Of a stretch of DNA of 64,000 bases, positions 20,296 to 39,765 are shown piece by piece. Every line of letters starts with the position of its first letter. The stretch's first letter is position 1. The notes beneath the pieces were generated by a model that was not told the DNA's origin, made no database searches, and saw only the letters and a list, made by a program, of their open reading frames with translations. Origin of the DNA: Streptomonospora nanhaiensis (GTDB lineage: Bacteria > Actinomycetota > Actinomycetes > Streptosporangiales > Streptosporangiaceae); NCBI RefSeq assembly GCF_013410565.1, contig NZ_JACCFO010000001.1:806001-870000 (forward strand), in the 5' to 3' direction. Position numbers and translations under genes: made by a program.

Positions 20296-20308
20296 GTAGA
20301 CAGTCTAC
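20296..20308. promoter_or_regulatory. GntR operator, site 1 (autoregulation)
   Basis: GTAGAC-A-GTCTAC is a perfect 13-bp palindrome 39 bp upstream of the regulator start codon. It matches the other sites at the outer and central positions (GTAGAC instead of GTATAC). Confidence 0.65.
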
Positions 20309-20658
20309 GAAATCCCGAACACCTCTACACGGGAACCGCTCGAACCGCTCGGATATCACCCCGCACCGCCGGGCCGGCCCGAGGGCGATCGCGAGCCCGC
20401 GGGCGGCTCACCGACCCGCGATCGCACCGGGCGCACCGGCGGTGCGCCGGACGGGCCGCCGGCGCCGGGGCACCCGCGGCCGGTCCCCGCCGCAGGGCGG
20501 GGCCGTCCGGCCCGGCCGCGGTGTCCGGCCCGCGCGGCGGCGGAAGGGCGCACGGCGGAGGGCGCGTCCGGCACCGAGAAGAACTCGGGATGTTGCCGTT
20601 CCTCCGCATTCGCACGTTCCTTTTCCGCCACCGCCCCCTCGAACACCGCGGTCACTCA

Positions 20659-20671
20659 GCATACTGTATAC
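20659..20671. promoter_or_regulatory. GntR operator, site 2 (PanE-like gene)
   Basis: GCATACTGTATAC, 33 bp before the start of the PanE-like gene. It is identical in all 13 bases to the site before the MFS transporter gene at 35348-35360, nearly 15 kb away. Confidence 0.75.
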
Positions 20672-20703
20672 AAAATCGTTCCGCCCAGCGAACGGAGCCC
20701 AGT

Positions 20704-21726
20704 ATGAGAATCGCCATCCTCGGCGCGGGCGCGATCGGCGCCTACGCCGGAGCGGCCCTGCACCGCGGCGGGGCCGAGGTCCACCTCATCGCCCGCGGCG
20801 CCCACCTGGACGCCCTGCGCGCCGAGGGCGTGCGCGTCCTCAGCCCCCGCGGGGACTTCACCGCCCGGCCCAACGCCACGGCCGACCCCCGCGAGGTCGG
20901 CCCGGTCGACATCGTCTTCCTCGGGCTCAAGGCCCAGCACTACGCCTCCTGCGGCCCGATGCTGCGCCCGCTCATGGGACCGGGCACCGCCGTGGTCGCC
21001 GCGCAGAACGGGATCCCCTGGTGGTACTTCCACGGGGTCGAGGGGCCCTTCGCCGGGCGGCGGGTCGAGACCGTGGACCCCGGCGGCGCCGTCAGCCGGG
21101 CCATCCCGGTCGAACGCGCCATCGGGTGCGTGGTCTACGCCGCCACCGAGATCGCCGCGCCCGGGGTCATCCGGCACCTGGAGGGCACCCGGTTCTCCAT
21201 CGGCGAGCCCGACGGGTCGGACTCCGCGCGCTGCCGGGACTTCGCCGAGGCGATGCGGGCGGGCGGCCTCAAGTGCCCGGTGGAGCCCGACCTGCGCGAG
21301 GACATCTGGGTCAAGCTGATGGGCAACATCACCTTCAACCCCCTCAGCGCGCTCACCCGCTCGACCATGGCGCAGATCTGCCGGGACCGCTCCACCCGCG
21401 AACTGGCGCTGACGATGATGCGCGAGACGCTGGAGGTGGCCGGGCGGCTGGGGGTGCGTACCGACGTCTCGGTCGAGCGCCGGCTGGCCGGCGCCGAGCG
21501 CGCGGGGGACCACCGCACCTCCACCCTGCACGACGTGGAGCGCGGCCGCCCCATGGAGCTGGACGTCCTGCTCACCGCGGTGATCGAACTGGCCGACCTG
21601 ACGGGCGCCGAGGTGCCCACCCTGCGCACCGTCGACGCGATCGCCCGGCTGCTCAACGCCCGGCTGATGGACGGCAGCGTGGCCGCCGGCATCGAGGCCG
21701 CCCGCAGGGCGCCCGCCGCCGCCTGA
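20704..21726 (+). CDS. Ketopantoate reductase (PanE/ApbA) family protein, candidate oxalyl-CoA reductase
   Basis: 340 residues. The N-terminal Rossmann fold has ILGAGAIGAYAGAAL. The C-terminal domain has catalytic Lys204 and Asn208 in VKLMGNITFNPLSALT and the substrate-loop STLHDVERGRPMELD. These place it in the 2-dehydropantoate 2-reductase family. Its position in the regulon, with the same operator as the oxalate genes and no pantothenate genes nearby, points elsewhere: in Methylobacterium extorquens a PanE-type protein (PanE2) is the oxalyl-CoA reductase that makes glyoxylate for carbon assimilation. I infer the same role here. A plain ketopantoate reductase remains possible. Confidence 0.8.
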   Translation: MRIAILGAGAIGAYAGAALHRGGAEVHLIARGAHLDALRAEGVRVLSPRGDFTARPNATADPREVGPVDIVFLGLKAQHYASCGPMLRPLMGPGTAVVAAQNGIPWWYFHGVEGPFAGRRVETVDPGGAVSRAIPVERAIGCVVYAATEIAAPGVIRHLEGTRFSIGEPDGSDSARCRDFAEAMRAGGLKCPVEPDLREDIWVKLMGNITFNPLSALTRSTMAQICRDRSTRELALTMMRETLEVAGRLGVRTDVSVERRLAGAERAGDHRTSTLHDVERGRPMELDVLLTAVIELADLTGAEVPTLRTVDAIARLLNARLMDGSVAAGIEAARRAPAAA

Positions 21727-21816: not shown

Positions 21817-21829
21817 GCATACTGTAGAC
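21817..21829. promoter_or_regulatory. GntR operator, site 3, overlapping a probable -10 (formate dehydrogenase catalytic gene)
   Basis: GCATACTGTAGAC lies 122 bp upstream of the start codon. A TTGCCC (21797-21802) stands 17 bp before TACTGT (21820-21825), so the palindrome covers the candidate -10. The identical TTGCCC with identical spacing occurs before site 4. The region 21727-21815 just upstream is C-rich and G-poor, a possible Rho-loading stretch after the PanE-like gene. Confidence 0.7.
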
Positions 21830-21951: not shown

Positions 21952-23922
21952 ATGCGATCGAAGGACTATCCGCCCGGCAGCTACGAACGGCTCACCCGGC
22001 CCCTGGTGCGGGAGAACGGCGAACTCCGCCCCGCCTCGTGGGACGAGGCGCTCGACCGCGCCGCCGCAGGCTTCTCCGCCGCCGTCGACACCCACGGCCC
22101 CAACGCGTTCGGGATGCTCTCCTGCGCCCGGGCCACCAACGAGATGAACTTCATGGCCCAGAAGTTCACCCGCGTCGTCATGGGCACCAACAACGTCGAC
22201 TCCTGCAACCGCACCTGCCACGCCCCCAGCGTGGCCGGGCTGGCGGCGGCCTTCGGCTCGGGCGGGGGCACCTCCTCCTACGCCGAGGTCGAGGACACCG
22301 ACCTGATCGTGGTGTGGGGCGGCAACCCCCGCTTCGCCCACCCGATCTTCTTCCAGCACGTGCTCAAGGGCGTGCACCGCGGCGCCCGGCTGTTCGTGGT
22401 GGACCCCCGCCGCACCTCCTCGGCGCAGTGGGCCGACCGCTGGCTGGGCCTGAACGTGGGCACCGACATCCCGCTGGCGCACGCCATCGGGCGCGAGATC
22501 ATCCACGCCGGCCTGGCCAACGACACCTTCATCCGCCGCGGCACCACCGGCTTCGAGGAGTACCGCGAGCTGGTGGAGCCCTGGACCCTGGCCGCCGCCG
22601 AGGCCGAGACCGGGGTGCCCGCCGAGGCCATCCGCGAACTGGCGCACGCCTACGCCACCGCCGAGCGCGCCCAGCTGTGCTGGACCCTGGGCATCACCGA
22701 GCACCACAACGCCACCGACAACGTCAAGGCGCTGATCAACCTGTCGCTGCTCACCGGGCACGTGGGCCGCCACGGCTCCGGCCTGCAGCCGCTGCGCGGG
22801 CAGAACAACGTGCAGGGCGGCGGCGACATGGGCGCCATCCCCGACCGGCTGGCCGGGTTCCAGGACATCCTCGACCCCCAGGTGCGGGCGCGCTTCGAGG
22901 CCGCCTGGGACACCACCATCCAGCCGCACAAGGGCAAGACCCTCACCCAGATGTTCGAGGCGATGGACGAGGGCGAGCTGAAGGCCCTCTACGTCATCGG
23001 CGAGAACCCGGTGCAGTCGGAGCCCGAGACCCACACCACCACCCGCCGGCTGAAGCGGCTGGACCACCTGGTGGTCCAGGACATCTTCCTCACCCGCACC
23101 GCCGAACTGGCCGACGTGGTGCTGCCCGCCAGCGCGTCGTGGTGCGAGTCCGACGGCACCTTCACCAACAGCGAGCGGCGCGTGCAGCTGGTCCGCAAGG
23201 CGCTGGACCCGCCGCCCGGGGCGCGCGACGACATCGAGATCCTGTGCGACCTGGCCGAGCGGCTGGGCCACCCCTGGCGCCGGCCCAGCGCCGAGGAGGT
23301 GTGGGACGAACTGCGCTCGCTCTCGCCCATCCACCGCGGCATGAGCTACCGGCGGCTGGAGGAGCTGCACGGCATCCAGTGGCCGTGCTACTCCGAGGAC
23401 ACCCTGGAGCCGAGCTACCTGCACGCCCGCCTGTGGTCGGAGGACCCCGAGGAGCGCGGCCGGCCGGCCCCGTTCGGGATCGTGGGGCACTCGCCGCCGG
23501 TGGACCTGCTCGACGACGACTACCCGTTCCGCCTCACCACGGGCCGCCGGCTGGACGACTACAACACCGGCGTGCAGACCAGCGGCTTCTCCTCCCCGCT
23601 GCGCAGGGGCGAGACCCTGGACATCTCCCCCGAGGACGCCGGGCGCCTGGGCCTGGCCGAGGGCGAGGTCGTGCGGGTGTCCTCGCGGCGCGGCTCGGTA
23701 CTGGTGCCGGTGGCGATCACCCCGGCGATGCGGGAGGGGCTGGTCTTCATGACCTTCCACTTCCCCGACCAGGTCGACACCCAGCTGCTGACCATCGACG
23801 CCACCGACCCGATCGCCGGGACGGCCGAGTACAAGGCCGCCGCCGTGCGCATCGAGAAGGTGGGCGACGCGGAGCGGTCCGCCGCCGGCGCGGCACCGGT
23901 GGCGGTGCACGCCGCCCCCTGA
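21952..23922 (+). CDS. Formate dehydrogenase catalytic (molybdopterin) domain as a separate polypeptide, C-terminal part of a split alpha subunit
   Basis: 656 residues of molybdopterin oxidoreductase. The active site reads DSCNRTCHAPSVAGL with Cys89 (Mo ligand, in place of Sec) and His90, as in formate dehydrogenases. A molydopterin dinucleotide-binding domain closes the chain (about 525-640, RLTTGRRLDDYNTGVQT). It begins at the segment that in fused FdsA/FdhA enzymes follows the first [4Fe-4S] domain (YERLTRPLVRENGELRPASWDEAL) and has no N-terminal iron-sulfur modules. Those are encoded at 27119-28060, whose product ends exactly where this one begins. Together they total about 970 residues, the size of a normal fused alpha subunit. 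It should oxidise formate to CO2 in the cytoplasm. Confidence 0.9.
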   Translation: MRSKDYPPGSYERLTRPLVRENGELRPASWDEALDRAAAGFSAAVDTHGPNAFGMLSCARATNEMNFMAQKFTRVVMGTNNVDSCNRTCHAPSVAGLAAAFGSGGGTSSYAEVEDTDLIVVWGGNPRFAHPIFFQHVLKGVHRGARLFVVDPRRTSSAQWADRWLGLNVGTDIPLAHAIGREIIHAGLANDTFIRRGTTGFEEYRELVEPWTLAAAEAETGVPAEAIRELAHAYATAERAQLCWTLGITEHHNATDNVKALINLSLLTGHVGRHGSGLQPLRGQNNVQGGGDMGAIPDRLAGFQDILDPQVRARFEAAWDTTIQPHKGKTLTQMFEAMDEGELKALYVIGENPVQSEPETHTTTRRLKRLDHLVVQDIFLTRTAELADVVLPASASWCESDGTFTNSERRVQLVRKALDPPPGARDDIEILCDLAERLGHPWRRPSAEEVWDELRSLSPIHRGMSYRRLEELHGIQWPCYSEDTLEPSYLHARLWSEDPEERGRPAPFGIVGHSPPVDLLDDDYPFRLTTGRRLDDYNTGVQTSGFSSPLRRGETLDISPEDAGRLGLAEGEVVRVSSRRGSVLVPVAITPAMREGLVFMTFHFPDQVDTQLLTIDATDPIAGTAEYKAAAVRIEKVGDAERSAAGAAPVAVHAAP

Positions 23923-23963
23923 CCGGCCGGGAGTCCGCCGCCGGGCCGGATTGGCGGCGGACG

Positions 23964-24003
23964 GCGCGGTCCCGCGCCGCGGGCAGGCGGCGCGGGACCG
24001 CGC
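23964..24003 (+). terminator. Perfect 17-bp hairpin after the catalytic formate dehydrogenase gene
   Basis: Arms 23964-23980 and 23987-24003 are exact complements around a 6-base loop, 40 bp after the stop codon. It should end the transcript, so the two halves of the alpha subunit are on separate messages. Confidence 0.65.
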
Positions 24004-25003
24004 GCCGGGTGGCGGCGCTGGGCGCGTGCCCCGCCCGGCGCGGTTCGCGGGGGGCCGCGCCGCGGCACCGCGGGGAACGGTCCGCGCCGCGCACGGCCCC
24101 CCGGCATGCGCCGGATCCCGTCCCGCCGCCCCCGCTCCCCTCCCCCGTTCCTCCTCCCGGCGGTCCGCCGCGCACCCGCCGCGCGCGCACCCCGGCAGAC
24201 CCGCAGACCCCCCGATCCCGCCGCGACCGGCGGCCGGGACCCCCGCGGTCCCGGCCGCGCCTTCGGGTGCGCTGTTCGCCACCCGGCACCCGAGGGCGCG
24301 GTCGCGGGTGCGGGCGGCGACGGCCGCGACGCCAGGCGTCCCGGTCCCCCGCCGCCCGCACCGGGGAGCGGCGGGCCGCCCGAACGGCGCCCGGGCGGCC
24401 CGCCGCGCACACCCCCGGCCGGGGGCCCGGAAGGCGTCCGCAACGCCCCCGGGGCAGGCCGGACGCCCGCACCCCGGGCCGCCCGGTCCCCCACCGGGCC
24501 GGGGGCGCAGGCATCCGCCCGGGCGGCGGGCAAGACGGCGGCCGCGCCGCGGCGGCGCCCCCAAACGGCCGGGGCCGCTTGCGGGCGCCGCCGCCGGGGA
24601 ATGTCCTTGCCGTACCACCGCCGTCCGAGAGAGACGGAGCGGTGCCGCCGCGCCGACCGGCGCGGCCCGGCACCCGCGCCCCGCCCCCTGGCCGGCGCGC
24701 CCGCATGACCGCCCTGGGAAGCCCGTGAGTGCCGCACCCCGCCAGCGCAGCTGTCTCCGCGCCCGCGCGCGGGCGTCGGTGTGCGCGCCCGCTGCCGCCG
24801 CGGGCCGGCCGCGGCCCGGCGGGCCGCACCAAAGGCGCGGCGCGGGGTCCCGGTTCGGACCGCGCGGGGCGGGCGGGGCGGATGAGGCCGAAATCACGGG
24901 CGGCGCGCGGCGGGTCCCCGAGGATCGCGCTGAGGGGAAACCGCGTCGTCACAGCGGGTGCCCGGCCCCGGCGGCGGCGCCCCAACCGCCCCCGCGCGAG
25001 GGG
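24004..25003. other. About 1 kb without a supported gene, between the two halves of formate dehydrogenase
   Basis: Very GC-rich and low in complexity. All long frames on both strands are Arg/Pro/Gly/Ala-rich, have no recognisable family and lack a clean third-position pattern. I see no RNA gene. It may be the remains of a lost gene or a rearrangement scar. Only the right end, from about 25004, carries the promoter and operator of the next gene. Confidence 0.5.
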
Positions 25004-25043
25004 TTGCCCGCCAAGGGAATGAAGCATACTGTAGCCCGTATAC
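25004..25043. promoter_or_regulatory. Promoter and tandem GntR operators, site 4 (NuoE-NuoF fusion gene)
   Basis: GCATACTGTAGCC (25024-25036) overlaps a second half-site, CCGTATACAACG (GTATAC at 25038-25043). TTGCCC at 25004-25009 lies 17 bp before TACTGT, the same layout as site 3. The operator ends about 45 bp before the chosen start codon. Confidence 0.7.
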
Positions 25044-25088
25044 AACGTCTGTGACCTGGCTTACACATGATTCGAGGTGACCGGGGAC

Positions 25089-27122
25089 GTGGACCTGCAC
25101 TTCCTGGATGCTGTTCCGGACGACACCGAACGGGAGGCCGTCGACTCCGTCCTCGGGCCCCCCGAGTCGGGGTGGGACGGCGGCCTGCGCCAGGCGTCCG
25201 ACCTGCGCTTCGCCGAGGGCGGGCACGCCGCCCGGGGGCGGCGCGACCTCCTCCTTCCCGCGCTGCACGCCGTCAACGACCGCGTCGGCTGGATCAGCCC
25301 GGCCGCCCTCGACTACATCTGCCGCCGCCTGACCGTCCCGCCCGCCGAGGCCTACGGCGTCGCCTCCTTCTACGCCATGTTCGCGCTGAAGGAGCGGCCC
25401 CGCCGGGTGGTCCACGTGTGCACCGACATCGCCTGCGCCGCGCGCGGGTCCGACTCCCTGTGCGCGGCCATGACCGAGCGGGTCGGCCCGCCCGGCACGG
25501 GCGACGGCGACCTCGTCTGGCACGAGAGCCCGTGCCTGGGCATGTGCGAGCGCGCCCCGGCCGCCCTGTCCCTGGAGGCCGGCGACCCGCCCCGCTACGC
25601 CGTTGCCGCCCCCGCTCGCCCCGGCGACCTGGTCACCGGCGCGGGGAGCCCGCCGGGCACCGGGGCGCCGCACCCCGCCGCCGAGTCCGCGCCCGCCGCG
25701 CCGGCCGAGGCGGCCCCCGCCTCACCCAACGGGTCGGGGCCCCACCCCGGCACCGGATCGCCCAACGGCCACCGCCCGCGGCGCACCACCACCTTCTCCC
25801 CCGACACCCTGCCCGGCCCCGCGCCCGAGCCGCCGCCCGCGGCGGCGGTGCCGCAGGCCGGCGACCCCGGCCTGGTCCTGCTGCGCCGCATCGGCGTGGT
25901 CGACCCCGAGAGCCTCGACGACTACCGCGCCAACGGCGGCTACGCCGCCCTGCGCGCGGCGCTGGCCATGGGCCCCTCGGCGGTCATCCGCGAGGTCACC
26001 GACTCCGGCCTGGTCGGGCGCGGCGGTGCCGCGTTCCCCACCGGCCGCAAGTGGGAGGGCACGGCGCGCCGCCCCGAGACCCCCCGCTACGTCGTGTGCA
26101 ACGCCGACGAGAGCGAACCGGGCACCTTCAAGGACCGCGTCCTCATGGAGGGCGACCCCTTCGCGGTGATCGAGGCGCTGACCATCGCCGGCTACGCCAA
26201 CGGCGCGGCACAGGGCTACCTCTACATCCGCGGCGAGTACCCGCGCGCGCTGTCGCGGCTGGAGAACGCCATCGCCAAGGCGCGCGGGCGCAACCTGCTG
26301 GGCCGCGACATCCTGGGCTCGGGGTTCGACTTCGACATCGAGATCCGGCGGGGTGCGGGCGCCTACATCTGCGGCGAGGAGACCGCGATCTTCAACTCGA
26401 TCGAGGGCCTGCGCGGCGAGCCGCGCAGCAAGCCGCCCTTCCCGGTCGAGCGCGGCCTGTTCGGCAGGCCCACCGCGATCAACAACGTCGAGACGCTGGC
26501 CAACGTCCTGCCGATCATGCTGATGGGCGGCCCGGCCTACGCCGCCATCGGCACCGGGCGCTCCACCGGGCCCAAGCTGTTCTGCGTCTCGGGCGCGGTG
26601 CCGCGCCCCGGGGTCTTCGAGGTCCCCTTCGGCGCCACGCTGCGCGAGCTGCTGGAGCTGGCCGGGCTGGGCGCGGACGCCCCGGCCCCCCGCGCGGTGC
26701 TGCTGGGCGGCGCGGCCGGGGGGTTCGTGCGCGGCGACGAACTCGACATCCCGCTGACCTTCGAGGGCGCGCGCGAGGCCGGGGCCACGCTGGGCTCGGG
26801 CGTGGTGCTGGTGCTCGACGACTCGGTGGACCTCGGCGCGATCCTGGTGCGCATCGCCGCGTTCTTCCGCGACGAGTCGTGCGGGCAGTGCGTGCCCTGC
26901 CGCGTGGGCACCGTCCGCCAGGAGGAGGCGCTGCTGCGGCTGTCGCGGGGCACCGGCACCCGCCGCACCGACCTCGCCCTGCTGCGCGAGGTCGGCCAGG
27001 CGATGCGCGACGCCTCGATCTGCGGCCTGGGCCAGACCGCGTGGAACGCGGTGGAATCGGCGATCGACCGGCTGGGCGTGTTCGGCCCGGACGACCACCC
27101 AACCCTGAAGGAGGCCCGGTGA
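25089..27122 (+). CDS. NAD-linked formate dehydrogenase beta/gamma subunits fused (NuoE-NuoF / FdsG-FdsB fusion)
   Basis: About 677 residues. The N-terminal part (about 1-165) is a NuoE/FdsG thioredoxin-like [2Fe-2S] domain with VHVCTDIACAARGS and ESPCLGMCERAP giving four cysteines. A Pro/Ala/Gly linker (about 165-255) joins it to a NuoF/FdsB domain with the FMN/NAD site GRGGAAFPTGRKWEG, VVCNADESEPGTFKDR, ICGEETAIFNSIEG and the [4Fe-4S] motif ESCGQCVPCRVGT. It passes electrons from formate to NAD. I chose GTG 25089 because GAGGTGA lies eight bases upstream; the GTG inside that motif (25077) is the alternative. It overlaps the next gene by four bases. Confidence 0.9.
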   Translation: MDLHFLDAVPDDTEREAVDSVLGPPESGWDGGLRQASDLRFAEGGHAARGRRDLLLPALHAVNDRVGWISPAALDYICRRLTVPPAEAYGVASFYAMFALKERPRRVVHVCTDIACAARGSDSLCAAMTERVGPPGTGDGDLVWHESPCLGMCERAPAALSLEAGDPPRYAVAAPARPGDLVTGAGSPPGTGAPHPAAESAPAAPAEAAPASPNGSGPHPGTGSPNGHRPRRTTTFSPDTLPGPAPEPPPAAAVPQAGDPGLVLLRRIGVVDPESLDDYRANGGYAALRAALAMGPSAVIREVTDSGLVGRGGAAFPTGRKWEGTARRPETPRYVVCNADESEPGTFKDRVLMEGDPFAVIEALTIAGYANGAAQGYLYIRGEYPRALSRLENAIAKARGRNLLGRDILGSGFDFDIEIRRGAGAYICGEETAIFNSIEGLRGEPRSKPPFPVERGLFGRPTAINNVETLANVLPIMLMGGPAYAAIGTGRSTGPKLFCVSGAVPRPGVFEVPFGATLRELLELAGLGADAPAPRAVLLGGAAGGFVRGDELDIPLTFEGAREAGATLGSGVVLVLDDSVDLGAILVRIAAFFRDESCGQCVPCRVGTVRQEEALLRLSRGTGTRRTDLALLREVGQAMRDASICGLGQTAWNAVESAIDRLGVFGPDDHPTLKEAR

Positions 27123-28060
27123 GCACACCGGTAACGCTGTCCCCGCCGCGGCGGCTGGTCGACGTCACCGTCGACGGCCGCGAGGTGCGGGTCCCCGAGG
27201 GCGCCACGATCCTGGAGGCGTGCGAGGCGCTGGGCACCGAGGTCCCCACGCTGTGCTACGGCGACACCCTGACCCCCCGCAACGCCTGCCGGGTGTGCGT
27301 GGTCGAGGTCGAGGGCGCCCGCACGCTGGTGCCGGCCTGCTCGCGCAAGGTCGAGGAGTCCATGGCCGTCAAGACCGACTCCGAGCGGGTGCGCCACAGC
27401 CGCAAGATGGTGCTGGAGCTGCTGGGGTCGTCGGTGGACCTGTCCACCACCCCCAACGTGCCCGAGTGGATGGACCGCTACGAGGCCCGGCCCGAGCGGT
27501 TCGGCCCGCGCGCCGAGCCCGCGCCGCTGGGCGAGCGCGACGCCCGCCACGCGGGCGAGCACGAGCCCGGCGACGGCGCGGTGGCGGCCACCGTGGAGCA
27601 GCCCGCCAAGGTCGACAACGACCTCTACGTGCGCGACTACGGCAAGTGCATCATGTGCTACAAGTGCGTGGACGCCTGCGGCGAGCAGTGGCAGAACACG
27701 TTCGCGATCGGGATCGCCGGGCGCGGCTTCGACGCCCGCGTCTCCACCGAGCACGACCTCGCCCTGCCCGACTCCGCCTGCGTCTACTGCGGCAACTGCA
27801 TCGAGGTGTGCCCCACGGGCGCGCTGTCCTTCCGCACCGAGTACGAGATGCGCGCCGAGGGCACCTGGGACGAGGACCGGCAGACCCGGACCACCACGGT
27901 GTGCACCTACTGCGGGGTGGGCTGCAACGTCACCCTGCACGTCCAGGACAACGAGATCGTCAAGGTCACCTCGCCGCACGACAACCCGGTGACGCACGGC
28001 AACCTGTGCATCAAGGGCAGGTTCGGCTTCCAGCACGTGCAGCACCGGCGGCAGGACTGA
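27119..28060 (+). CDS. Formate dehydrogenase iron-sulfur module, N-terminal part of the split alpha subunit
   Basis: 313 residues from GTG 27119 (GTGA overlap with the fusion gene). Modules in order: [2Fe-2S] ferredoxin domain (about 12-85, LCYGDTLTPRNACRVCVVE), a His/Cys-type region, a two-[4Fe-4S] ferredoxin domain (about 168-240, CIMCYKCVDACGEQW and CVYCGNCIEVCPTGA), and the Mo-enzyme [4Fe-4S] domain (about 260-305, CTYCGVGC and LCIKGRFG, with the electron-relay Lys). It stops right after CIKGRFGFQHVQ. In fused enzymes the chain would continue into the molybdopterin domain, here encoded 3 kb upstream at 21952-23922. The two chains must assemble in trans. Confidence 0.9.
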   Translation: MSTPVTLSPPRRLVDVTVDGREVRVPEGATILEACEALGTEVPTLCYGDTLTPRNACRVCVVEVEGARTLVPACSRKVEESMAVKTDSERVRHSRKMVLELLGSSVDLSTTPNVPEWMDRYEARPERFGPRAEPAPLGERDARHAGEHEPGDGAVAATVEQPAKVDNDLYVRDYGKCIMCYKCVDACGEQWQNTFAIGIAGRGFDARVSTEHDLALPDSACVYCGNCIEVCPTGALSFRTEYEMRAEGTWDEDRQTRTTTVCTYCGVGCNVTLHVQDNEIVKVTSPHDNPVTHGNLCIKGRFGFQHVQHRRQD

Positions 28061-28242
28061 CCGCAGGAGCAGGGGCGGGGTCCGGGCGCCGCGCCCGGGC
28101 CGCCGCCGCCACACTCGACCACCGCGGCCGAGGCGGCAAAGGGCCCGCCGGGCGGACGACTGAACCGCCCCCGGCGGGGGAATCCCTCCGAGGGTCCGCG
28201 CGAGGCGGACCCGCGAGCACGGCCACGGAGAAGGGGCAGCCC

Positions 28243-31376: not shown

Positions 31377-32924
31377 CTAGCCGTGCTCCTCGGGGCGCAG
31401 CGTGTAGTCGGGGAAGTTGCCGGGGAGGCGCTCGCCCGCCGGCCCCCGCGTGACGGCCTGCACCAGCAGCCGCCCGCCGACGAAGGCGCCCCGCCAGGAG
31501 TCGCCCCAGCCGCCGAACAGCTCGGCGCGGTCCCCGCGGGAACGCGGCTTGTTCACGCCGACCTTGAACGCCCGCACGCCGGCGGAGATCCGCGCCGCCA
31601 CGTCGGGGTCGTCGGTGGAGATGGACGACACCAGCGCGCCGTTGCTGGCGTTCATGGCGGCCAGCAGTTCGGCCTCGGTGTCCACCAGCACGATGGAGTC
31701 GACCGGCCCGAACGGCTCGGCGTGGAACAGCGGCGAGGAGCGCGGCGGCTCCAGCAGCGCCACCGGCGCCACGTAGGCGTCGGTGTTCTGGCCCGGCAGC
31801 AGCCGGGCGTCGGACACCGCGCCCCGGTACAGCGGCACGGCGCCGCCGGCCACCGCGTCGGCCACCTGGGCGGCGAGGTCCTTGGCCTTGGCGGCGTTGA
31901 TGAGCGGGCCGAAGTCCAGCTCGGGCAGTTCCTCGGCGGCGTCGGACACCGCCAGGGGGTGGCCGAACCGCACCGCCGAGACCGCCGGCAGGTAGGCGCC
32001 GAGGAACCGGTCGAAGAGCGAGCGCTGCACGATGAAGCGGGGGTAGGCGGTGCAGCGCTGCTTGGCGTAGTCGAAGGTCTTGCGGACCTGGCCGGTGAAG
32101 GTCTCCCAGTCGGAGTACTCCCACACCCCCCAGCAGTTCAGGCCCTCCTGCTCCAGGATGTGCCGCTTGCCGAGGTCGGCCAGCGCGGTGGCGACCTGGC
32201 CGCCGGTGTCGCGGCCGCCGACGAAGGAGACGCAGCCGATCTCGGGCGCGCGCACCAGCACCGGCGACAGCTCCCGGCCGCCCCCGCTGAGCAGGGTGAA
32301 CGGCAGCCCCTCGCGGGCGGCCAGCGCCACGGCCAGGGTCAGGCAGACCAGACCGCCGTCGGTGGGGGTCTTGGCGATCGCGGCGTTGCCCGCCAGCGCC
32401 TGCACGCACATGGCGTGGGCGAGCACGCTCATCGGGTAATTCCAGCTGGCGATGTTGCTGACCGGGCCGTCCAGCGGCGCGCGGCCGTCGAGCATCTCCT
32501 CGATCTCGTCGAGGTACCACTCCACGCCGGAGATGGCGCGGTCGACGTCCTGGCGGGCCAGCCGCCAGGGCTTGCCGATCTCCCACACCAGGGCCAGCGC
32601 CAGCAGGTCGCGGTGCTCGCCCCACGCGTCGAGCGCGGCGCGCACCCGGGCGCGGCGCTCGGCGAGCGGCTGGACGCGCCAGGCGTTGTGCTGGTCGACG
32701 GCGGCGCGCACCGCCGCCTCGGCGGTGGCGGCGTCGATCATCGGGGGGCCGGCGATCTCGGTGCCGTCGACCGGCGACACCGCCAGGCGCGGCTCGCCGT
32801 CGGCCCGCCAGCTCCCGCCCCAGTGGTTGTTGACGCGGTCGGCGCCGAACGCCTCGGGCGCGGTCTCGCGGCAGCGTCGGTAGAGGGTGGTCCATTCGGT
32901 CCCGGGTTTGAGCATGAGCGTCAT
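31377..32924 (-). CDS. Aldehyde dehydrogenase family protein, in the sucCD block
   Basis: 515 residues. Catalytic residues are Asn162 (WNYP), Glu260 (LEQEGLN) and Cys291 (AKQRCTAYPR). The sequence LEQEGLNCWGVWEYSDW replaces the usual LELGGK-type segment, so this is a divergent subgroup and the substrate cannot be named. It lies 196 bp downstream of sucD on the same strand, with a hairpin between. If co-regulated with the oxalate genes, glyoxylate, glyoxal or glycolaldehyde oxidation, or an acyl-CoA-linked reaction, would be plausible; this is inference. Confidence 0.8.
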   Translation of the reverse strand: MTLMLKPGTEWTTLYRRCRETAPEAFGADRVNNHWGGSWRADGEPRLAVSPVDGTEIAGPPMIDAATAEAAVRAAVDQHNAWRVQPLAERRARVRAALDAWGEHRDLLALALVWEIGKPWRLARQDVDRAISGVEWYLDEIEEMLDGRAPLDGPVSNIASWNYPMSVLAHAMCVQALAGNAAIAKTPTDGGLVCLTLAVALAAREGLPFTLLSGGGRELSPVLVRAPEIGCVSFVGGRDTGGQVATALADLGKRHILEQEGLNCWGVWEYSDWETFTGQVRKTFDYAKQRCTAYPRFIVQRSLFDRFLGAYLPAVSAVRFGHPLAVSDAAEELPELDFGPLINAAKAKDLAAQVADAVAGGAVPLYRGAVSDARLLPGQNTDAYVAPVALLEPPRSSPLFHAEPFGPVDSIVLVDTEAELLAAMNASNGALVSSISTDDPDVAARISAGVRAFKVGVNKPRSRGDRAELFGGWGDSWRGAFVGGRLLVQAVTRGPAGERLPGNFPDYTLRPEEHG

Positions 32925-33120: not shown

Positions 33121-34002
33121 CTACTGCCACAGGCCCCGGACGATCTCCGCCGCCTCGGTGGGGGTCTTGCCGACCTTGACGCCGGCGGCCTCCAACGCCT
33201 CCTTCTTCGCCGCGGCCGTACCCGCCGACCCCGACACGATCGCGCCCGCGTGCCCCATCGTCTTGCCCTCGGGAGCCGTGAACCCCGCCACGTAACCGAC
33301 GACCGGCTTGGACACGTTGGCCCTGATGAACTCCGCGGCCCGCTCCTCGGCGTCCCCGCCGATCTCACCGATCATCACGATCGCGTCCGTACCCGGGTCG
33401 GCCTCGAACGCCGCCAGCGCGTCGATGTGGGTCGTCCCGATGATCGGGTCCCCACCGATCCCCACCGCCGTGGAGAAACCGATGTCCCGCAGCTCATACA
33501 TCATCTGGTAGGTCAGCGTCCCCGACTTCGACACCAGCCCGATCCGCCCCGGCCGCGTGATGTCGGCCGGAATGATGCCCGCGTTGGACTCCCCCGGCGT
33601 GATCAGACCCGGGCAGTTGGGCCCGATGATCCGCGTCCGGTTGCCCTTGGCGCAGGCGTGCGCCCAAAACGCCGCCGTGTCGTGCACCGGAATGCCCTCG
33701 GTGATCACCACCGCCATCCCGATACCCGCGTCGATCGCCTCCACCACCGCGGCCTTGGCAAAGCGCGGCGGCACGAACACCACCGACACATCGGCCCCCG
33801 TGGCCGCCATGCCCTCGGCCACCGACGCGAACACCGGCACCTGGGTGCCGTCGAAGTCCACCGACTGGCCGGCCTTGCGCGGGTTGACCCCGCCCACGAT
33901 CCGCGTGCCCGCCGCCAGCATCCGGCGGGTGTGCTTGGTGCCCTCAGAGCCCGTCATGCCCTGCACCAGCACCTTGCTGTCCTTGGTCAGGAAGATAGCC
34001 AT
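33121..34002 (-). CDS. sucD: Succinyl-CoA synthetase alpha subunit (or related acid-CoA ligase)
   Basis: 293 residues. CoA-binding domain at the N-terminus ([27 protein letters not shown]; given in part) and phospho-His251 in [25 protein letters not shown] and [14 protein letters not shown] are canonical for SucD. It catalyses ADP/GDP-linked succinate-CoA ligation; close homologues act on malate. It lies 27 bp after sucC. Codon use here and in the last part of sucC is richer in G-ending codons than in neighbouring genes. Confidence 0.9.
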
Positions 34003-34029
34003 GATGCTTCTACTCGCCTCGCGCCCTCG

Positions 34030-35202
34030 TTACTTCGCGGCCAGTTCAGCGGCCCGGGCGGCAGCGCCGTCCATGGTCGCCACCTGGCGCACCGCCGGAT
34101 GGGCGGCATCGGTCAGGATCCGGCGGCCCAGCTCGGCGTTGTTGCCGTCCAGGCGCACCACCAGCGGCTTGGTCACATCGTCGCCCCGGCCCTCCAGCAG
34201 CCGCAGGGCCTGCACGATGCCGTTGGCCACCGCGTCGCAGGCGGTGATCCCGCCGAACACGTTGACGAACACGCTCTTGACATCGGGGTCGCCCAGGATG
34301 ATCTCCAGGCCGTTGGCCATGACCTCGGCCGAGGCGCCCCCGCCGATGTCCAGGAAGTTGGCCGGCTTGACCCCGCCGAACTCCTCACCGGCATAGGCCA
34401 CCACGTCCAGCGTCGACATCACCAGGCCCGCACCGTTGCCGATGATCCCGACCTGACCGTCCAGCTTGACGTAGTTGAGCCCCTTCTCCTTGGCCCGGGC
34501 CTCCCGGGAGTCGGCCAGGCCGTCGTCGTGGAAGGGGAAGCGCTCGGGATGGCGGTCCAGGGCGTTGTCGTCGAGGGTGACCTTGCCGTCCAGGGCGACG
34601 AGGCGGTTGCCGGTGGTGCGCACCAGCGGGTTGACCTCGACCAGCGTGGCGTCCTCCTCCACGGCCACGCGCCACAGCCGCTGCAGCACCACCGCGGTGG
34701 GCGGGTGGAGGTCCTCGGGCAGGCCGGCCGCGCGGCAGATGGCCAGCGCGGCCGCGCGGTCCAGGCCGGCGAGGGGGTCGACGGGCGTGCGCACCACGGC
34801 CTCGGGCCGGGTGGCGGCGACCTCCTCGATCTCCATGCCGCCCTGGGCGGAGCAGATGGAGAGGAAGGAGCGGTTGGCGCGGTCCAGCAGGAACGAGAAG
34901 TAGTACTCCTCGGCGATGTCGGTGGCCTCCTCCACCAGGACCCGGTGGACGGTGTGGCCCTTGATGTCCATGCCGAGGATCTGCTCGGCCTTGGCGCGGG
35001 CGTCCTCGGGCCCCTCGGCCACCTTCACCCCGCCGGCCTTGCCGCGCCCGCCGGTCTTCACCTGCGCCTTGACGACCACGCGGCCGCCCAGCCGCGCGGC
35101 GCTGGCGGCGGCCTGCTCGGGGGTCGATGCGAGTTGGCGTTCGGCGAGCGGCACCTCGTGCTCACCGAACAGCTGTTTGGCTTCGTACTCGTAGAGGTCC
35201 AC
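34030..35202 (-). CDS. sucC: Succinyl-CoA synthetase beta subunit (or related acid-CoA ligase)
   Basis: 390 residues. ATP-grasp domain (about 1-235) beginning [19 protein letters not shown], with [18 protein letters not shown] and EVNPLVRT; the ligase domain follows ([36 protein letters not shown]). It is the upstream gene of the minus-strand sucC-sucD-aldehyde dehydrogenase block. GntR operators lie 47-72 bp before its start, so it is probably induced with the oxalate genes. It may supply CoA thioesters as donors or act on another dicarboxylate. Confidence 0.9.
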
Positions 35203-35248
35203 CGGGCCTCCTCGGCGTCGCGTGCGGTTGACGGACCCTCCTGACTGT

Positions 35249-35274
35249 CATACGCGAGATCGTATGCAGTATGC
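35249..35274. promoter_or_regulatory. GntR operator, site 5 (sucC side of the divergent region)
   Basis: GTATGCAGTATGC (35262-35274) is one base from the reverse form of the perfect sites. CATACG (35249-35254) and CGTATG (35261-35266) make a further interleaved inverted repeat. It lies 47-72 bp upstream of sucC on the minus strand. Confidence 0.7.
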
Positions 35275-35347
35275 AATACCACCAGCGACCCTCACCGGGG
35301 GCGCGAACCGGCCGCCGCGACCCCCTTCACACGCCCGACCGCAGAAC

Positions 35348-35360
35348 GCATACTGTATAC
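35348..35360. promoter_or_regulatory. GntR operator, site 6 (MFS transporter)
   Basis: GCATACTGTATAC, 27 bp before the transporter start, identical to site 2. Together with site 5 it gives one operator per arm of the divergent sucC / transporter promoter region. Confidence 0.75.
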
Positions 35361-35387
35361 GTTCGCCACGATGTGAGGTGCACCACA

Positions 35388-36752
35388 GTGAACCCTCCGC
35401 CTTCCGCCCCTGCGGGCCATCTCGCCTCGCCCTACGCCCCCGCCGCGCCCGGCGAACTGGCCGACTGGACCGGCCGCCGCTACGCGGTGGGCCGCTCGGC
35501 CCGCGAACTCGCCGGCGCCGACCGGTCCGTCCTGGCCGCGCGCGCCGTAGTGGCCGTGGCGGCGGTGGGCGTGCTCCAGTTCGGCTACGGGGCGGCCGTG
35601 CCGCTGCTGGTGGCCGCCCACGGCTGGAGCCCGGCCGCCGCGCTGCTGCCCTTCGCGCTGTGGACCCTGGTGCAGGGCGCCACCGCGCTGCCGCTGGCCC
35701 GGCTGCGCGAGCGCGGCGTCCTGGACCCGGGCCGGGCGGTGGTCGCCGGCGCCCCGCTGTGCGCGGCCGCCCTGGCGGTCTGCGGGCTCAGCGGCCACCT
35801 GGGCGTCGTCGCGCTGGGCTACGGCCTGCTCGGCGGTTTGGGCGCCGGCCTGGTCTACCACTCCGCCGTGCACGTGGTCGCCGCCTGGTACCCCGAGCGC
35901 CCCGCCACCCACGCGGTGCCCGCCGGTGCGGGGTTCGCGCTGGGAGCGGTGCCGCTGGTGGCCGGGATCGCACTGGCCGAGCCCGCCCACCTGGCCGCCG
36001 CACCGTGGGTGGGGGCGGCGCTGGCGCTGGTGGTCGCCGGGGCCGGGTGGCGGCTGAGCGCGCCGCCGCCGCGCTGGTGGCCGCCCGGAAGCGACCCCCG
36101 CGCCTGGGCGCTGCGCCGCCGCCGCGAACCCCTGGCCTGCGTCGACCTCTCCCCCGCCCAGGCCTGGCGCAGCGGGGCGCTGCCGGGCCTGCACGCCGTG
36201 GTCGCCCTGGCCGGCGCCATGGCCCTGGCCGACCTGGCGGTGCTGCCGCTGCTGCTGGCGCGCGCCGACCTTCCGCCCGGGGGCGCCGCCGCGGTGCTGG
36301 CCGCGCTGGTGGCCGCCAGCGGGCTGGGCCGGGCGGCCGCGGGCCGCTGGGCCGAGCGCGTGGGCCGGCGCCGCATCCTGGTGGCCGCGCTGGCCGCCGG
36401 AGGCGCCGCGCAGTTCGCGCTGCCGGCCGCGGCCGCGCTGGGCTCGGTGCCGGCGCTGGTCGCGCTGGCCGTTCCGGCGGGGGTGGGCGGGGGGTGCTGC
36501 TACCCGCTGACGCGCACGCTGGCGCTGGACTACTTCGGCAGCCGCGACAGCGCCGAGATCTCCGGGCTGGTCTACAGCGCCAAGGCGGTGGGCGGGCTGC
36601 TGGGCGTGGGCGGCGCCGCCGCGCTGCTGGTCTGGCTGCCCGGCGCCGGAGCGGCGGCGGCGCTGCTCGCCGCGGGTGCGGCGGGGCTGGCGGCGGCGGT
36701 GACGGCCGGGCGGCTGCGGCGCCCCGTACCCATTCGCACGATTCCTCTCTAG
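35388..36752 (+). CDS. MFS transporter of the oxalate/formate antiporter (OxlT-like) type
   Basis: 454 residues, twelve predicted membrane helices. I chose GTG 35388 because GAGGTG lies seven bases upstream. Arg315 in SGLGRAAAGRWAERVG and Lys399 in GLVYSAKAVGGLLG match the positions of the Arg and Lys that bind oxalate in OxlT (helices 8 and 11). The operon context (oxalyl-CoA decarboxylase 75 bp downstream) supports oxalate uptake, perhaps in exchange for formate. Overall identity to OxlT is low, so another carboxylate remains possible. Confidence 0.8.
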   Translation: MNPPPSAPAGHLASPYAPAAPGELADWTGRRYAVGRSARELAGADRSVLAARAVVAVAAVGVLQFGYGAAVPLLVAAHGWSPAAALLPFALWTLVQGATALPLARLRERGVLDPGRAVVAGAPLCAAALAVCGLSGHLGVVALGYGLLGGLGAGLVYHSAVHVVAAWYPERPATHAVPAGAGFALGAVPLVAGIALAEPAHLAAAPWVGAALALVVAGAGWRLSAPPPRWWPPGSDPRAWALRRRREPLACVDLSPAQAWRSGALPGLHAVVALAGAMALADLAVLPLLLARADLPPGGAAAVLAALVAASGLGRAAAGRWAERVGRRRILVAALAAGGAAQFALPAAAALGSVPALVALAVPAGVGGGCCYPLTRTLALDYFGSRDSAEISGLVYSAKAVGGLLGVGGAAALLVWLPGAGAAAALLAAGAAGLAAAVTAGRLRRPVPIRTIPL

Positions 36753-36785
36753 ACACCGGAGAGGGGCTCGTGTAGCAATGGAAGC

Positions 36786-36804
36786 CATACGGTATGCAGT
36801 ATCC
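36786..36804. promoter_or_regulatory. GntR operator, site 7 (oxc operon)
   Basis: CATACGGTATG (36786-36796, perfect palindrome) overlaps GTATGCAGTATCC (36792-36804). The arrangement repeats that of site 5. It ends only 23 bp before the oxc start codon, close enough to block initiation. Confidence 0.7.
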
Positions 36805-36827
36805 AATGAATGGAGATGGGTGCTCAG

Positions 36828-38516
36828 ATGACTGACGACAAGGGTGGCGACACCACGATCTCGGGCGGTCACCTCGTCGCCAAGGCCCTCAAGGCCGAGG
36901 GGGTCGACGTGATCTTCACGCTGTGCGGCGGCCACATCATCGACATCTACGACGGCTGCGCCGACGAGGGCATCGACGTCATCGACGTCCGCCACGAGCA
37001 GGTCGCCGCCCACGCCGCCGACGGCTACGCGCGGGTCACCGGCAAGCCCGGCTGCGCGGTGGTCACCGCCGGCCCCGGCACCACCGACGCGGTCACCGGG
37101 ATCGCCAACGCCTTCCGCGCCGAGAGCCCGATGCTGGTGATCGGCGGGCAGGGCGCGCTCAGCCAGCACAAGATGGGCTCGCTGCAGGACCTGCCGCACG
37201 TCGACATGATCAACCCCATCTCCAAGTTCGCCGCCACCGTGCCCCACACCGAGCGCGTCGCCGACATGGTCTCCATGGCCTTCCGCGAGGCGCTCAACGG
37301 CGCCCCCGGCCCCTCCTTCCTGGAGATCCCGCGCGACGTCCTGGACGCCTCGGTCCCGCTGTCCTCGGCCCGCATCCCCCGGCCCGGCGGCTACCGCGCC
37401 TCCACCCGCCAGGCCGGCGACCCCGACGCCGTCGAGCGCCTGGCCGAGCTGCTGGTGCGCTCCGAGCGCCCCAGCATCCTGCTCGGCAACCAGGTGTGGA
37501 CCACCCGGGCCACCGACTCCGCCGTGGAGCTGGTGCGCGCGCTCAACGTCCCGGCCTACATGAACGGCGCCGGCCGGGGCACCCTGCCGCCCGGCGACCC
37601 CCACCACTTCCAGCTCTCGCGCCGGCACGCCTTCAACAACTCCGACCTGATCGTCATCGTCGGCACGCCCTTCGACTTCCGCATGGGCTACGGCAAGCGG
37701 CTCTCCCCCGACGCCAAGGTCGTGCAGATCGACCTCAGCTACGCCACGGTGGGCCGCAACCGCGACATCGACCTGGGGATCGTCGGCGACGCCGACGTGG
37801 TGCTGAGCTCGGTGCTGCAGGCGACCTCGGCCTACGGCGACAACGGCGCGCAGGGCCGCAAGGCGTGGCTTGAGGAGCTGCGCCAGGTCGAGCGCCAGGC
37901 GCTGGACAAGCGCGCGCCGCTGCTGGCCTCCGACTCCACCCCCATCCACCCCTACCGACTGGTCAGCGAGATCAACGACTTCCTCACCGAGGACTCCATC
38001 TACATCGGCGACGGCGGCGACGTCGTCACGTTCTCCGGCCAGGTGGTCCAGCCCAAGTCCCCCGGCCACTGGCTGGACCCCGGCCCCCTGGGCACCCTGG
38101 GCGTGGGCGTGCCGTTCGTGATGGCGGCCAAGTACGCCCGGCCCGACAAGGAGGTGGTCGCGCTCTTCGGCGACGGCGCCTTCAGCCTCACCGGCTGGGA
38201 CTTCGAGACGCTGGTGCGCTTCAACCTGCCCTTCGTGGGGGTCGTCGGCAACAACTCCTCCATGAACCAGATCCGCTACGGCCAGATCGCCAAGTACGGC
38301 GCCGACCGCGGCGAGATCGGCAACACCCTCGGCGACGTCCGCTACTCGGAGTTCGCCCGGATGCTGGGCGGCTACGGCGAGGAGGTCCACGACCCCGCCG
38401 AGATCGGCCCCGCGCTGCGCCGCGCCCGCGAGTCCGGCAAGCCCTCGCTGATCAACGTCTGGATCGACCCCGAGGTCTACGCCCCGGGGACCATGAACCA
38501 GACCATGTACAAGTAG
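36828..38516 (+). CDS. oxc: ThDP-dependent oxalyl-CoA decarboxylase (divergent)
   Basis: 562 residues from ATG 36828 (in-frame ATGs at 36810 and 36816 have poorer ribosome binding sites). Three-domain ThDP fold: Glu57 in [15 protein letters not shown] activates the cofactor, and [15 protein letters not shown] to VGVVGNN (448-477) binds ThDP-Mg. The gene is 19 bp upstream of a clear formyl-CoA transferase gene, which makes decarboxylation of oxalyl-CoA to formyl-CoA the likely reaction. The segment [17 protein letters not shown] replaces the DYEEMDQ-type active-site stretch of Oxalobacter Oxc and resembles 2-hydroxyacyl-CoA lyases, so substrate range may differ. Automatic annotation would call it acetolactate synthase. 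Confidence 0.8.
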
Positions 38517-38535
38517 GCCACCCGGGGAGGACCCA

Positions 38536-39765
38536 ATGACCAAGGCACTCGACGGTGTCCGCGTCCTGGACATGACCCACGTGCAATCGGGGCCCTCGGC
38601 CACCCAGATCCTGGCCTGGCTGGGCGCCGACGTCATCAAGCTGGAGGCCCCCAGCGGCGACATCACGCGGCGCCAACTGCGCGACCTGCCCGACGTGGAC
38701 AGCCTCTACTTCACGATGCTCAACGGCAACAAGCGCAGCATCACCCTCAACACCAAGACCGACGAGGGCAAGCGCATCTTCCTCGACCTGGTCAAGCGCA
38801 GCGACGTGCTGGTGGAGAACTTCGCGCCGGGCGCGCTGGACCGCATGGGGTTCACCTGGGAGGTCCTCAAGGAGGCCAACCCGCGGCTCATCTACGCCTC
38901 GATCAAGGGGTTCGGCCCCGGCGCCTACGCCCACTTCAAGGCCTACGAGGTGATCGCCCAGGCCATGGGCGGCTCCATGAGCACCACCGGGTTCGAGAGC
39001 GGGCCCCCGCTGGCCACGGGCGCCCAGATCGGCGACTCGGGCACGGGAATGCATACAGTAGCCGGTATCCTTGCCGCCCTGTACCAGCGCACCAGCACCG
39101 GCCGCGGCCAGCGCGTCGAGGTCGCCATGCAGGACGCCGTGCTCAACCTGTGCCGGGTCAAGCTGCGCGACCAGCAGCGCCTGGCCCACGGCCCGCTCGC
39201 CGAGTACCCCAACGAGAGCTTCGGCGACGAGGTCCCCCGCTCGGGCAACGCCTCGGGCGGCGGCCAGCCCGGCTGGGCCGTGCGCACCGCGCCCGGTGGG
39301 CCCAACGACTACGTCTACGTCATCGTCCAGCCCGCCGGCTGGGAGCCGATCGCCCGCATCATCGGCCGGCCCGAACTGGCCGACGACCCCGAGTGGGCCA
39401 CCCCCGAGGCCCGCCTGGACAAGCTCGACAAGATGTTCGCCCTCATCGAGGAGTGGTCGGCCACCCTGCCCAAATGGGACGTGCTGGCCGCGCTCAACGA
39501 GCACAACATCCCCTGCGGCCCGATCCTGTCGACCCGGGAGATCATCGAGGACCCCACGCTCAACGGCAACGGGATCGTCACCACCGTGGAGCACCCCCAG
39601 CGCGGCGCGTACAAGACCGTGGGCCTGCCGATCCGCATGTCGGACTCCCCCGCCGACATCGACCGCTCACCGCTGCTGGGCGAGCACAACACCGAGGTCT
39701 ACCAGGGCGAACTGGGACTCTCCGCCGACGAACTGGCGGCACTCAAAGCGAACGGAGTGATCTGA
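38536..39765 (+). CDS. frc: Formyl-CoA:oxalate CoA-transferase
   Basis: 409 residues, a class III (CaiB/BaiF) CoA-transferase. It matches Oxalobacter Frc closely: [20 protein letters not shown] at the start, catalytic Asp167 in [10 protein letters not shown], the glycine loop GGGQP (241-245) and LLGEHNTEV near the end. It swaps CoA from formyl-CoA to oxalate, giving oxalyl-CoA and formate. It is second in the oxc-frc-ligase operon. A degenerate GntR site with atypical codons lies inside it at 39051-39070. Confidence 0.95.
39051..39070. promoter_or_regulatory. Intragenic GntR-like site inside frc
   Basis: GCATACAGTAGCCGGTATCC is identical to the tandem operator at 25024-25043 in 17 of 20 positions. 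It covers frc codons 172-178, and the codons there (CAT, ACA, GTA, GGT, then CTT) are ones the gene otherwise avoids. It may be a roadblock or looping site. Function is inference. Confidence 0.45.

Follow-up and report, generated by a model that had tools for sequence, protein, structure and literature searches.

The cluster and its genes

The stretch of DNA analyzed here, called the window below, comprises 64,000 bases of the Streptomonospora nanhaiensis genome (positions 806001 to 870000 of 6,283,946 bases in 2 contigs) and carries a cluster of 13 genes, one of them for a GntR/FCD regulator, with closely similar palindromic sites in front of its units. Judging from sequence, we consider it probable that these sites are the operators of one regulon for oxalate use and that the GntR/FCD protein acts as a repressor released by an oxalate-derived signal. 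The 13 genes are gntR, panE, fdhA, nuoEF-fdhB-fdhD, sucC-sucD-aldDH, the MFS gene, and oxc-frc-acs, with unit boundaries drawn from gene order and site positions.

The regulator gene (gntR, 19574 to 20257, reverse strand) encodes a 227-residue protein with Pfam FCD and GntR domains above cut-off and is the candidate binder of all sites. On the forward strand lie panE (20704 to 21726), encoding a ketopantoate-reductase-like protein (Pfam ApbA and ApbA_C; NF005089, 449 bits, cut-off 223); fdhA (21952 to 23922), for the catalytic (molybdopterin) subunit of formate dehydrogenase; and three genes with uncertain start codons, namely, nuoEF (25089 to 27122), for a NuoE/NuoF-like fusion subunit (Pfam 2Fe-2S_thioredx and Complex1_51K), fdhB (27107 to 28060), for a formate dehydrogenase iron-sulfur subunit (Pfam Fer2_4 and Molybdop_Fe4S4), and fdhD (28186 to 29103), for the formate dehydrogenase accessory protein FdhD (Pfam FdhD-NarQ, 240.5 bits). 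The reverse strand carries aldDH (31377 to 32924), for an aldehyde dehydrogenase (Pfam Aldedh, 286 bits; best NCBIfam model 129 bits, cut-off 521), sucD (33121 to 34002), for a SucD-like CoA ligase alpha subunit (NF004230, 444 bits, cut-off 336), and sucC (34030 to 35202), for a SucC-like beta subunit (NF001913, 509.5 bits, cut-off 370). Four further forward-strand genes follow: that of an MFS transporter, putatively for oxalate or formate (35388 to 36752; Pfam MFS_1); oxc, for a thiamine-diphosphate enzyme and putative oxalyl-CoA decarboxylase (36828 to 38516); frc, for formyl-CoA transferase (38536 to 39765; TIGR03253, 659.8 bits, cut-off 504.2); and acs, the last gene of the oxc unit, for an ADP-forming acyl-CoA ligase (39770 to 41917; NF045493, 548.6 bits, cut-off 1300; TIGR02717, 459 bits, cut-off 567).

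Among ten cluster proteins compared with NCBIfam models, a curated cut-off was passed only by Frc, SucC, SucD, and the PanE-type reductase, and Frc passed as an equivalog. The Oxc protein reached 254 bits with TIGR03254 (cut-off 739) and 264 bits with NF006721 (cut-off 557), its best model being the acetolactate-synthase-named NF004516 (520 bits, cut-off 587), and the MFS protein reached 55 bits with the oxalate/formate antiporter model TIGR04259 (cut-off 335). The oxalate chemistry therefore rests on Frc and its neighbors, since Oxc and the transporter fall short of the cut-offs for oxalyl-CoA decarboxylase and the oxalate/formate antiporter; an earlier note on this DNA, which inferred oxalate uptake, activation, decarboxylation, and formate oxidation, is corrected in this respect. 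The solved structures closest to Oxc in sequence are those of 2-hydroxyacyl-CoA lyases and of chains labelled oxalyl-CoA decarboxylase, and frc starts 13 to 170 bp after oxc in 80/80 loci of the named set described below, an arrangement that supports the Oxc assignment without defining it. Separately, curated models rank acetolactate synthase first and 2-hydroxyacyl-CoA lyase second for the Oxc-like gene (36828 to 38516), so that name-based surveys may miss actinomycete oxalate genes. FdhA scored just below its cut-off (TIGR01591, 642.8 bits against 666.25), and genes for an iron-sulfur, a NuoEF-like, and an FdhD protein adjoin it.

The sucCD genes, the aldehyde dehydrogenase gene, and the gene for the ADP-forming acyl-CoA ligase also belong to the units, and any role that we might assign them in oxalate use is a guess. 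PanE2 of Methylorubrum is an oxalyl-CoA reductase, and by analogy the cluster PanE may have the same activity. In one relative (locus L087), a glyoxylate carboligase gene (NF008431, 846 bits, cut-off 791) lies between sucD and aldDH, which fits glyoxylate assimilation and a PanE-to-glyoxylate branch. A second thiamine-diphosphate gene of the window (51641 to 53506) was considered as a glyoxylate carboligase and ruled out, as its product passes PRK08273 (934.8 bits, cut-off 724).

Candidate operators in the window

Sites were scored by their matches to the ten fixed letters of GNATACNGTATNC, and those with at least 9/10 were counted. Eight starts in the window reach this score (20659, 21817, 25024, 35262, 35348, 36785, 36792, and 39051), against a mean of 0.09 to 0.15 and a maximum of 2 in simulated windows (100 each for Markov orders 1, 2, and 3). 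Likewise, GTATNCNGNATAC with up to two mismatches has 12 matches in the window against a shuffle mean of 3.46, and 12 was reached in 0/100 shuffles.

The candidate operators of panE (20659 to 20671, forward strand) and of the MFS gene (35348 to 35360, forward strand) both read GCATACTGTATAC and score 10/10; the former is the top match genome-wide, and the latter overlaps a -10-like CATACT that lies 17 nt after TTCACA. The candidate operator of fdhA (21817 to 21829, forward strand) reads GCATACTGTAGAC, scores 9/10, and ranks second genome-wide, and that of sucC-sucD-aldDH (35262 to 35274, reverse strand) reads GTATGCAGTATGC, also scores 9/10, and was recovered by the genome-wide profile. Three half-sites make up the candidate operators of nuoEF-fdhB-fdhD (25024 to 25043, forward strand), which reads GCATACTGTAGCC followed by GTATAC at 25038, and of oxc-frc-acs (36785 to 36804, forward strand), which reads GTATGCAGTATCC at 36792 and was also recovered by the profile. 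A three-half-site candidate lies within frc as well (39051 to 39070, forward strand); it reads GCATACAGTAGCCGGTATCC, is the fifth match genome-wide, and stands out in codon usage. A weak candidate autoregulatory operator, GTAGACAGTCTAC (20296 to 20308, reverse strand), lies 39 bp from the gntR start, matches 8/10 fixed letters, and was missed by the genome profile; variants of it occur in 13/14 inspected gntR-panE intergenic regions. The seven palindromes listed in the earlier note are thus all present, as is the further copy that it placed inside frc (at 39051). Its description of each as lying just upstream of a gene start holds less well for that of fdhA, which ends 123 bp before the start codon.

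Genome-wide confinement of the sites

The exact sequence GNATACNGTATNC occurs at 3 places in the genome, 2 of them inside the window, and its reversed control at 0. A first profile, built from 43 of 57 operators (five of them window sites, with no frc site included), gave 8 matches at E ≤ 10 in the whole genome, and these represent 7 places, all between window positions 20657 and 39066 and hence within 18 kb: panE, fdhA, oxc, MFS, frc-internal, nuoEF, and sucC. The frc-internal site was therefore recovered by a profile trained without any frc site. An even frequency of sites throughout the genome, which the earlier note had set as a refuting outcome, was not seen; profile matches are confined to the cluster.

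A second profile drew on 31 of 57 operators, none from the genus, with a cut-off of E ≤ 5 and at most 150 candidates scored per genome, which is fewer than were found in several genomes; in this genome all 140 were scored. It returned 6 matches here, all in the cluster, and missed the MFS site. Across 8 genomes with frc and gntR, it gave 48 matches, 47 of them on cluster stretches and one at G080:C108, and across 11 genomes without frc it gave 2. In one relative with frc and no GntR match (G001), this profile found no site at E ≤ 5; G001 was dropped as a negative control, as its locus does have a site upstream of oxc, and the profile thus misses some sites.

Looser searches were less discriminating. 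With one mismatch allowed, GNATACTGNANNC had 98 + 88 matches genome-wide against 131 + 116 for the reversed pattern, so the motif is not favored at that level and only exact or profile scores are used genome-wide. The sequence ATACNGTAT occurs at 7 places in the genome, 3 of them in the cluster (reversed control, 2). Of the four outside places, one lies just before a HAD-like open reading frame (ORF) and one between converging ORFs; inspection by eye of the ORFs in 3-kb stretches around the four recognized no oxalate gene. None reaches the profile at E ≤ 10, and they were not accepted as regulon members. Chance or base composition as the source of the sites was ruled out by the simulated sequences, the reversed-motif control, and the genome profiles.

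Conservation of the sites in relatives

In a family set of 59 loci with any target gene, a site was counted when it lay within 300 bp upstream of a gene. Sites precede the unit leaders PanE (23/24), FdhA (17/18), NuoEF (14/15), SucC (22/22), and Oxc (27/28); the count for MFS is 22/24, one of which is an artefact (the gene starts off the contig in G046), so that 21/23 is the safer figure. The GntR row of this footprint mixes in sites that belong to panE. Within the same distance, no site was found upstream of the internal genes Frc (0/30), ACS (0/29), AldDH (0/17), SucD (0/15), FdhB (0/15), and FdhD (0/17). Altogether, the 53,590 upstream bases contain 164 sites and the remaining 995,809 contain 24 (total, 188), compared with 2 and 2 for the reversed motif (total, 4).

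A named set, made up of the 80 best from a pool of at least 585 loci surrounding the thiamine-diphosphate gene, spans Streptomonospora, Nocardiopsis, Streptomyces, Lentzea, Saccharopolyspora, Amycolatopsis, Prauserella, Rhodococcus, and others, overlapping the family set in some genomes. Here too, sites lie upstream of Oxc (74/80), SucC (63/68), PanE (24/26), and MFS (16/19) and are rare or missing before the internal genes Frc (0/80), ACS (0/80), and AldDH (1/37), with 196 sites against 1 reversed control in 1.57 Mb. Information per column is 1.53 to 1.76 bits in the site, compared with 0.24 to 0.52 in the upstream flank. Measured from the start codon, the end of the nearest site lies within 60 bp in 90/124 cases, within 100 bp in 112/124, and at 100 bp or more in 12/124; for fdhA, the distance varies from 18 to 123 bp.

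Sites therefore precede the first gene of each of six units and are kept in relatives while their flanks diverge. The earlier proposal of one regulon of about a dozen genes fits this pattern, with 13 genes, sites at unit leaders, and none at internal genes of the family set; the part of it that assigns control to GntR has candidate status.

Architecture of the probable operators and the site inside frc

The motif can be written as GNATAC-N-GTATNC, often with a third box a further 7 bp on. Such arrays are found at 36785 (CCATAC-G-GTATGC-A-GTATCC), 25024 (GCATAC-T-GTAGCC-C-GTATAC), and 39051 (GCATAC-A-GTAGCC-G-GTATCC). Among 283 distinct operator contexts, 27% have a further half-site 7 bp ahead of the 13-mer and 35% have one 7 bp beyond its second half; at least one of these is present in 163/283, and other offsets reach 0 to 12%. 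The operator is thus better described as an array of two to three half-sites than as the fixed 13-bp palindrome first proposed. Additional half-sites 7 to 12 nt from palindromes are a known trait of GntR operators, according to passages of PMC4494728. One GntR dimer may cover either the 13-mer or a single 6-bp box.

The site inside frc begins with the last base of codon 172 and ends with the first base of codon 179 (atG CAT ACA GTA GCC GGT ATC Ctt), in the part of the gene where seven-codon rarity peaks: the seven codons from codon 171 have the highest mean rarity in frc (1.55, against a mean of 0.57 and a standard deviation of 0.21). We compared 24 distinct frc genes (at least 84% identity and no indel) of 58 distinct ones. 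CAT ACA is kept at codons 173 and 174 in 16/24, and these two positions account for 16 of the 21 CAT and 16 of the 24 ACA codons present in the 24 genes; similarly, 11/19 GTA codons fall at codon 175. All 8 genes without the site read CAC at codon 173, and threonine is still encoded at codon 174 in five of them. The retention of rare codons points to selection on the DNA and hence to an intragenic operator about 2.3 kb from that of oxc. This copy, which the earlier note had set aside as an exception, rather appears to be under selection, with the same rare codons in 16/24 frc genes.

Elsewhere, an operator match, GCATACGGTATCC, lies inside the acyl-CoA ligase gene of Amycolatopsis eburnea (L158:13000) and is possibly a second intragenic operator.

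The regulator and its paralogue

The cluster GntR protein matches the GntR winged helix (PF00392, 72 bits, cut-off 27) and the FCD ligand domain (PF07729, 86.5 bits, cut-off 24.3), and its fold matches FCD structures. The nearest solved folds to its AlphaFold model (mean pLDDT, 88.7) are PmiR, VanR-type, TM0439, and other FCD proteins. The FCD positions N143, H147, H189, and H211 are invariant, and we take them to be the metal ligands of a metal-carboxylate site.

In a survey of 150 family genomes (GntR homologue at E ≤ 1e-30, frc at E ≤ 1e-130), GntR was found in 79, frc in 60, and both in 59 (Fisher P = 4.5e-23, kinship ignored). In a tree of 71 GntR proteins, two or more sites occur in 50/55 loci with cluster genes and in 1/16 loci without them. 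Whole-genome searches of 20 named genomes found one GntR homologue in each (20/20), 60 to 64% identical. The protein encoded at 19574 is the best candidate for the binder of the sites.

A paralogue (G000:C1:6219742-6220389, L053) is 66% identical to the cluster GntR. It falls in a clade of 12 that has support (97/86); no operator-like site was found in the 20-kb stretch of its locus, and none in the fetched stretches of the clade.

Proposed mechanism and alternatives

We propose that the GntR/FCD protein binds the half-site arrays as dimers and represses the units. Repression is suggested by the position of most sites near start codons and by the overlap of one with a -10-like hexamer, that of the promoter-like pair TTCACA-17-CATACT upstream of the MFS gene (the promoter scan covered 35150 to 35420, the MFS unit). 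The ligand that binds the FCD pocket and releases the repressor would be a small acid derived from oxalate (oxalate, glyoxylate, formate, or a CoA ester). Release would then supply uptake by the MFS transporter, activation by Frc and the CoA ligases, decarboxylation by the thiamine-diphosphate enzyme Oxc, reduction of oxalyl-CoA to glyoxylate for growth by PanE, and formate oxidation by the Fdh complex, and the weak site at 20296 would provide autoregulation. At about 2.3 kb into the oxc unit, the frc-internal operator would give the repressor a second contact, acting either by looping of the DNA or by obstructing RNA polymerase during elongation. A broader version of this model is tentative, and we rate it somewhat below even: a widespread actinomycete oxalate repressor would act through arrays at six promoters and the frc operator, with looping or roadblocking setting a sharp threshold for oxc-frc-acs. 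With the same reservation, the frc coding sequence would bear the cost of its operator as the rarest run of codons that it contains.

Several observations weigh against the repressor-operator reading. The individual matches of the first profile are weak (E values of 0.118 to 2.76), as the motif is short. The site within frc is missing in 8/24 frc genes. The Oxc, MFS, FdhA, and ACS proteins score below the cut-offs of the NCBIfam models expected for them. In the named set, a site lies upstream of fdhA in 4/7 loci and of nuoEF in 1/5 only, and 6/80 loci, all from Streptomyces, have no oxc site at threshold (a degenerate one is visible). The relatives are not independent, so that the counts overstate the evidence. 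As for the regulator, gntR lies inside the fetched stretch in only 29/80 named loci (the 20 genomes searched in whole came from the other 51), 20/79 GntR-bearing family genomes are without frc, and the sole frc genome without a GntR match (G001, in 610 contigs) still has its oxc site.

Among the alternatives, the one that survives best, although we regard it as unlikely, is that the regulon serves primarily formate or glyoxylate and that oxalate is one source of the signal. Two genomes without frc (G021, locus L048, and G076, locus L046) keep gntR beside fdhD, an arrangement that speaks against an oxalate-centered reading, suggests that formate could be the older theme, and possibly represents a formate-only version of the regulon. 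In addition, formate dehydrogenase genes carry two of the six unit operators, and Oxc and the MFS protein are unconfirmed by curated models. On the other hand, GntR accompanies frc in all but one of the frc genomes, most Streptomyces loci retain the sites of oxc and sucC, and Frc is a strong equivalog.

It is less probable still that the sites are operators from which GntR activates, bound upstream of promoters. FCD regulators of both signs are known, passages of PMC4746285 describing CitO as an activator, and the 12/124 sites at least 100 bp from a start codon would suit this mode; the 90/124 that end within 60 bp, however, leave little space for a downstream promoter, and one site overlaps the -10-like hexamer.

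We give little credence to the idea that another factor reads the operators or that the paralogue does so jointly with GntR. The paralogue shares the recognition region of the cluster GntR and could bind too, a further point against assigning the sites to the cluster protein. GntR proteins up to 60 to 70% identical may bind distinct motifs, although they need not (passages of PMC4494728). However, the clade of 12 to which the paralogue belongs is without sites in the fetched stretches, and a single GntR match is present in several motif-bearing family genomes (e.g., G009, G012, G028, and G064), as is a single homologue in all 20 named genomes checked. Finally, it is highly improbable that the sites serve these genes as shared core promoter elements, namely, extended -10 boxes, for while TTCACA-17-CATACT uses the MFS site as its -10 (the only unit scanned) and the sites are close to start codons, the profile-level motif is confined to the cluster in 6.28 Mb, is palindromic and set at varied distances (18 to 123 bp for fdhA), carries a third half-site at 7-bp phase in 163/283 contexts, and also occurs inside frc.

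Relation to known systems

FCD-type GntR regulators use palindromic operators before catabolic units. The cluster regulator resembles the FCD proteins PmiR, Atu1419 (VanR), and TM0439 in its GntR winged helix and FCD domain, its near folds, and its N/H/H/H set, and the system differs from theirs in the arrays at 7-bp steps and the intragenic copy. Passages of PMC8012715 describe Escherichia coli NanR, another FCD GntR protein, whose dimers bind GGTATA repeats in a (GGTATA)3 operator; two to three closely spaced GTAT-containing repeats are common to both systems, whereas in the present one some half-sites are inverted and the spacing is 7 bp. The cluster protein itself is not placed in NanR, with 82.8 bits for NF003011 against a cut-off of 260. 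The further box at 7 bp recalls the GntR palindromes with extra half-sites 7 to 12 nt away that are treated in parts of PMC4494728; unlike those operators, the present ones belong to one proposed new regulon and also lie within coding sequence.

The predicted pathway agrees with known oxalate catabolism as outlined in passages of PMC12927642, in which oxalate is decarboxylated to formyl-CoA, formate is oxidized, and reduction leads to glyoxylate, with oxalyl-CoA reductase as a step. It differs in that sucCD, aldDH, and the ADP-forming ligase are added under the same predicted operators. In the literature searched, outside which subscription journals mostly lay, as did RegPrecise, we found no FCD-type member that controls oxalate genes, no report linking such genes to a GntR regulator, and no regulator named for the oxalate genes of actinomycetes. 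The passages of PMC11045627, PMC10192776, and PMC4764995 matched by terms contain no GntR control of oxalate genes. A study devoted to LysR-type regulators (part of PMC9068703) lists E. coli oxc among the genes that changed, and other regulators thus touch oxc elsewhere. We infer that this is a new regulon of a known regulator kind, with the putative intragenic operator as its unusual part.

If the proposal is correct, one protein and one readable operator would explain the control of up to 13 genes, and the same sites would serve Streptosporangiales, Streptomyces, and Pseudonocardiaceae. It could also provide an oxalate sensor for laboratory use and would offer a clear natural case of a coding sequence keeping an operator. 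Oxalate-degrading bacteria have been studied against kidney stones. Soil bacteria that use oxalate supply the oxalate-carbonate pathway, as stated in passages of PMC7793669.

Other features of the window

In the panE promoter (window positions 20576 to 20625), several relatives have a conserved inverted pair, GAGAAGAAC ... GTTCCTTTTC, ahead of the panE operator; its two members are separated by about 31 nt, and it is possibly the site of another regulator. Between fdhA and the nuoEF operator lies a GC-rich stretch of about 1.1 kb (23923 to 25020) in which no gene was recognized. The contigs of several draft relatives begin within sucC. In this genome, almost the whole of sucD and the 3' portion of sucC (window positions about 33200 to 34400) are 99 to 100% identical in DNA, in 100-base bins, to a second sucCD copy 3.6 Mb away (C1, about 4414400 to 4415700; locus L186), and the first 800 bases of sucC are only 62 to 98% identical to that copy, a tract that is likely the product of recent gene conversion.

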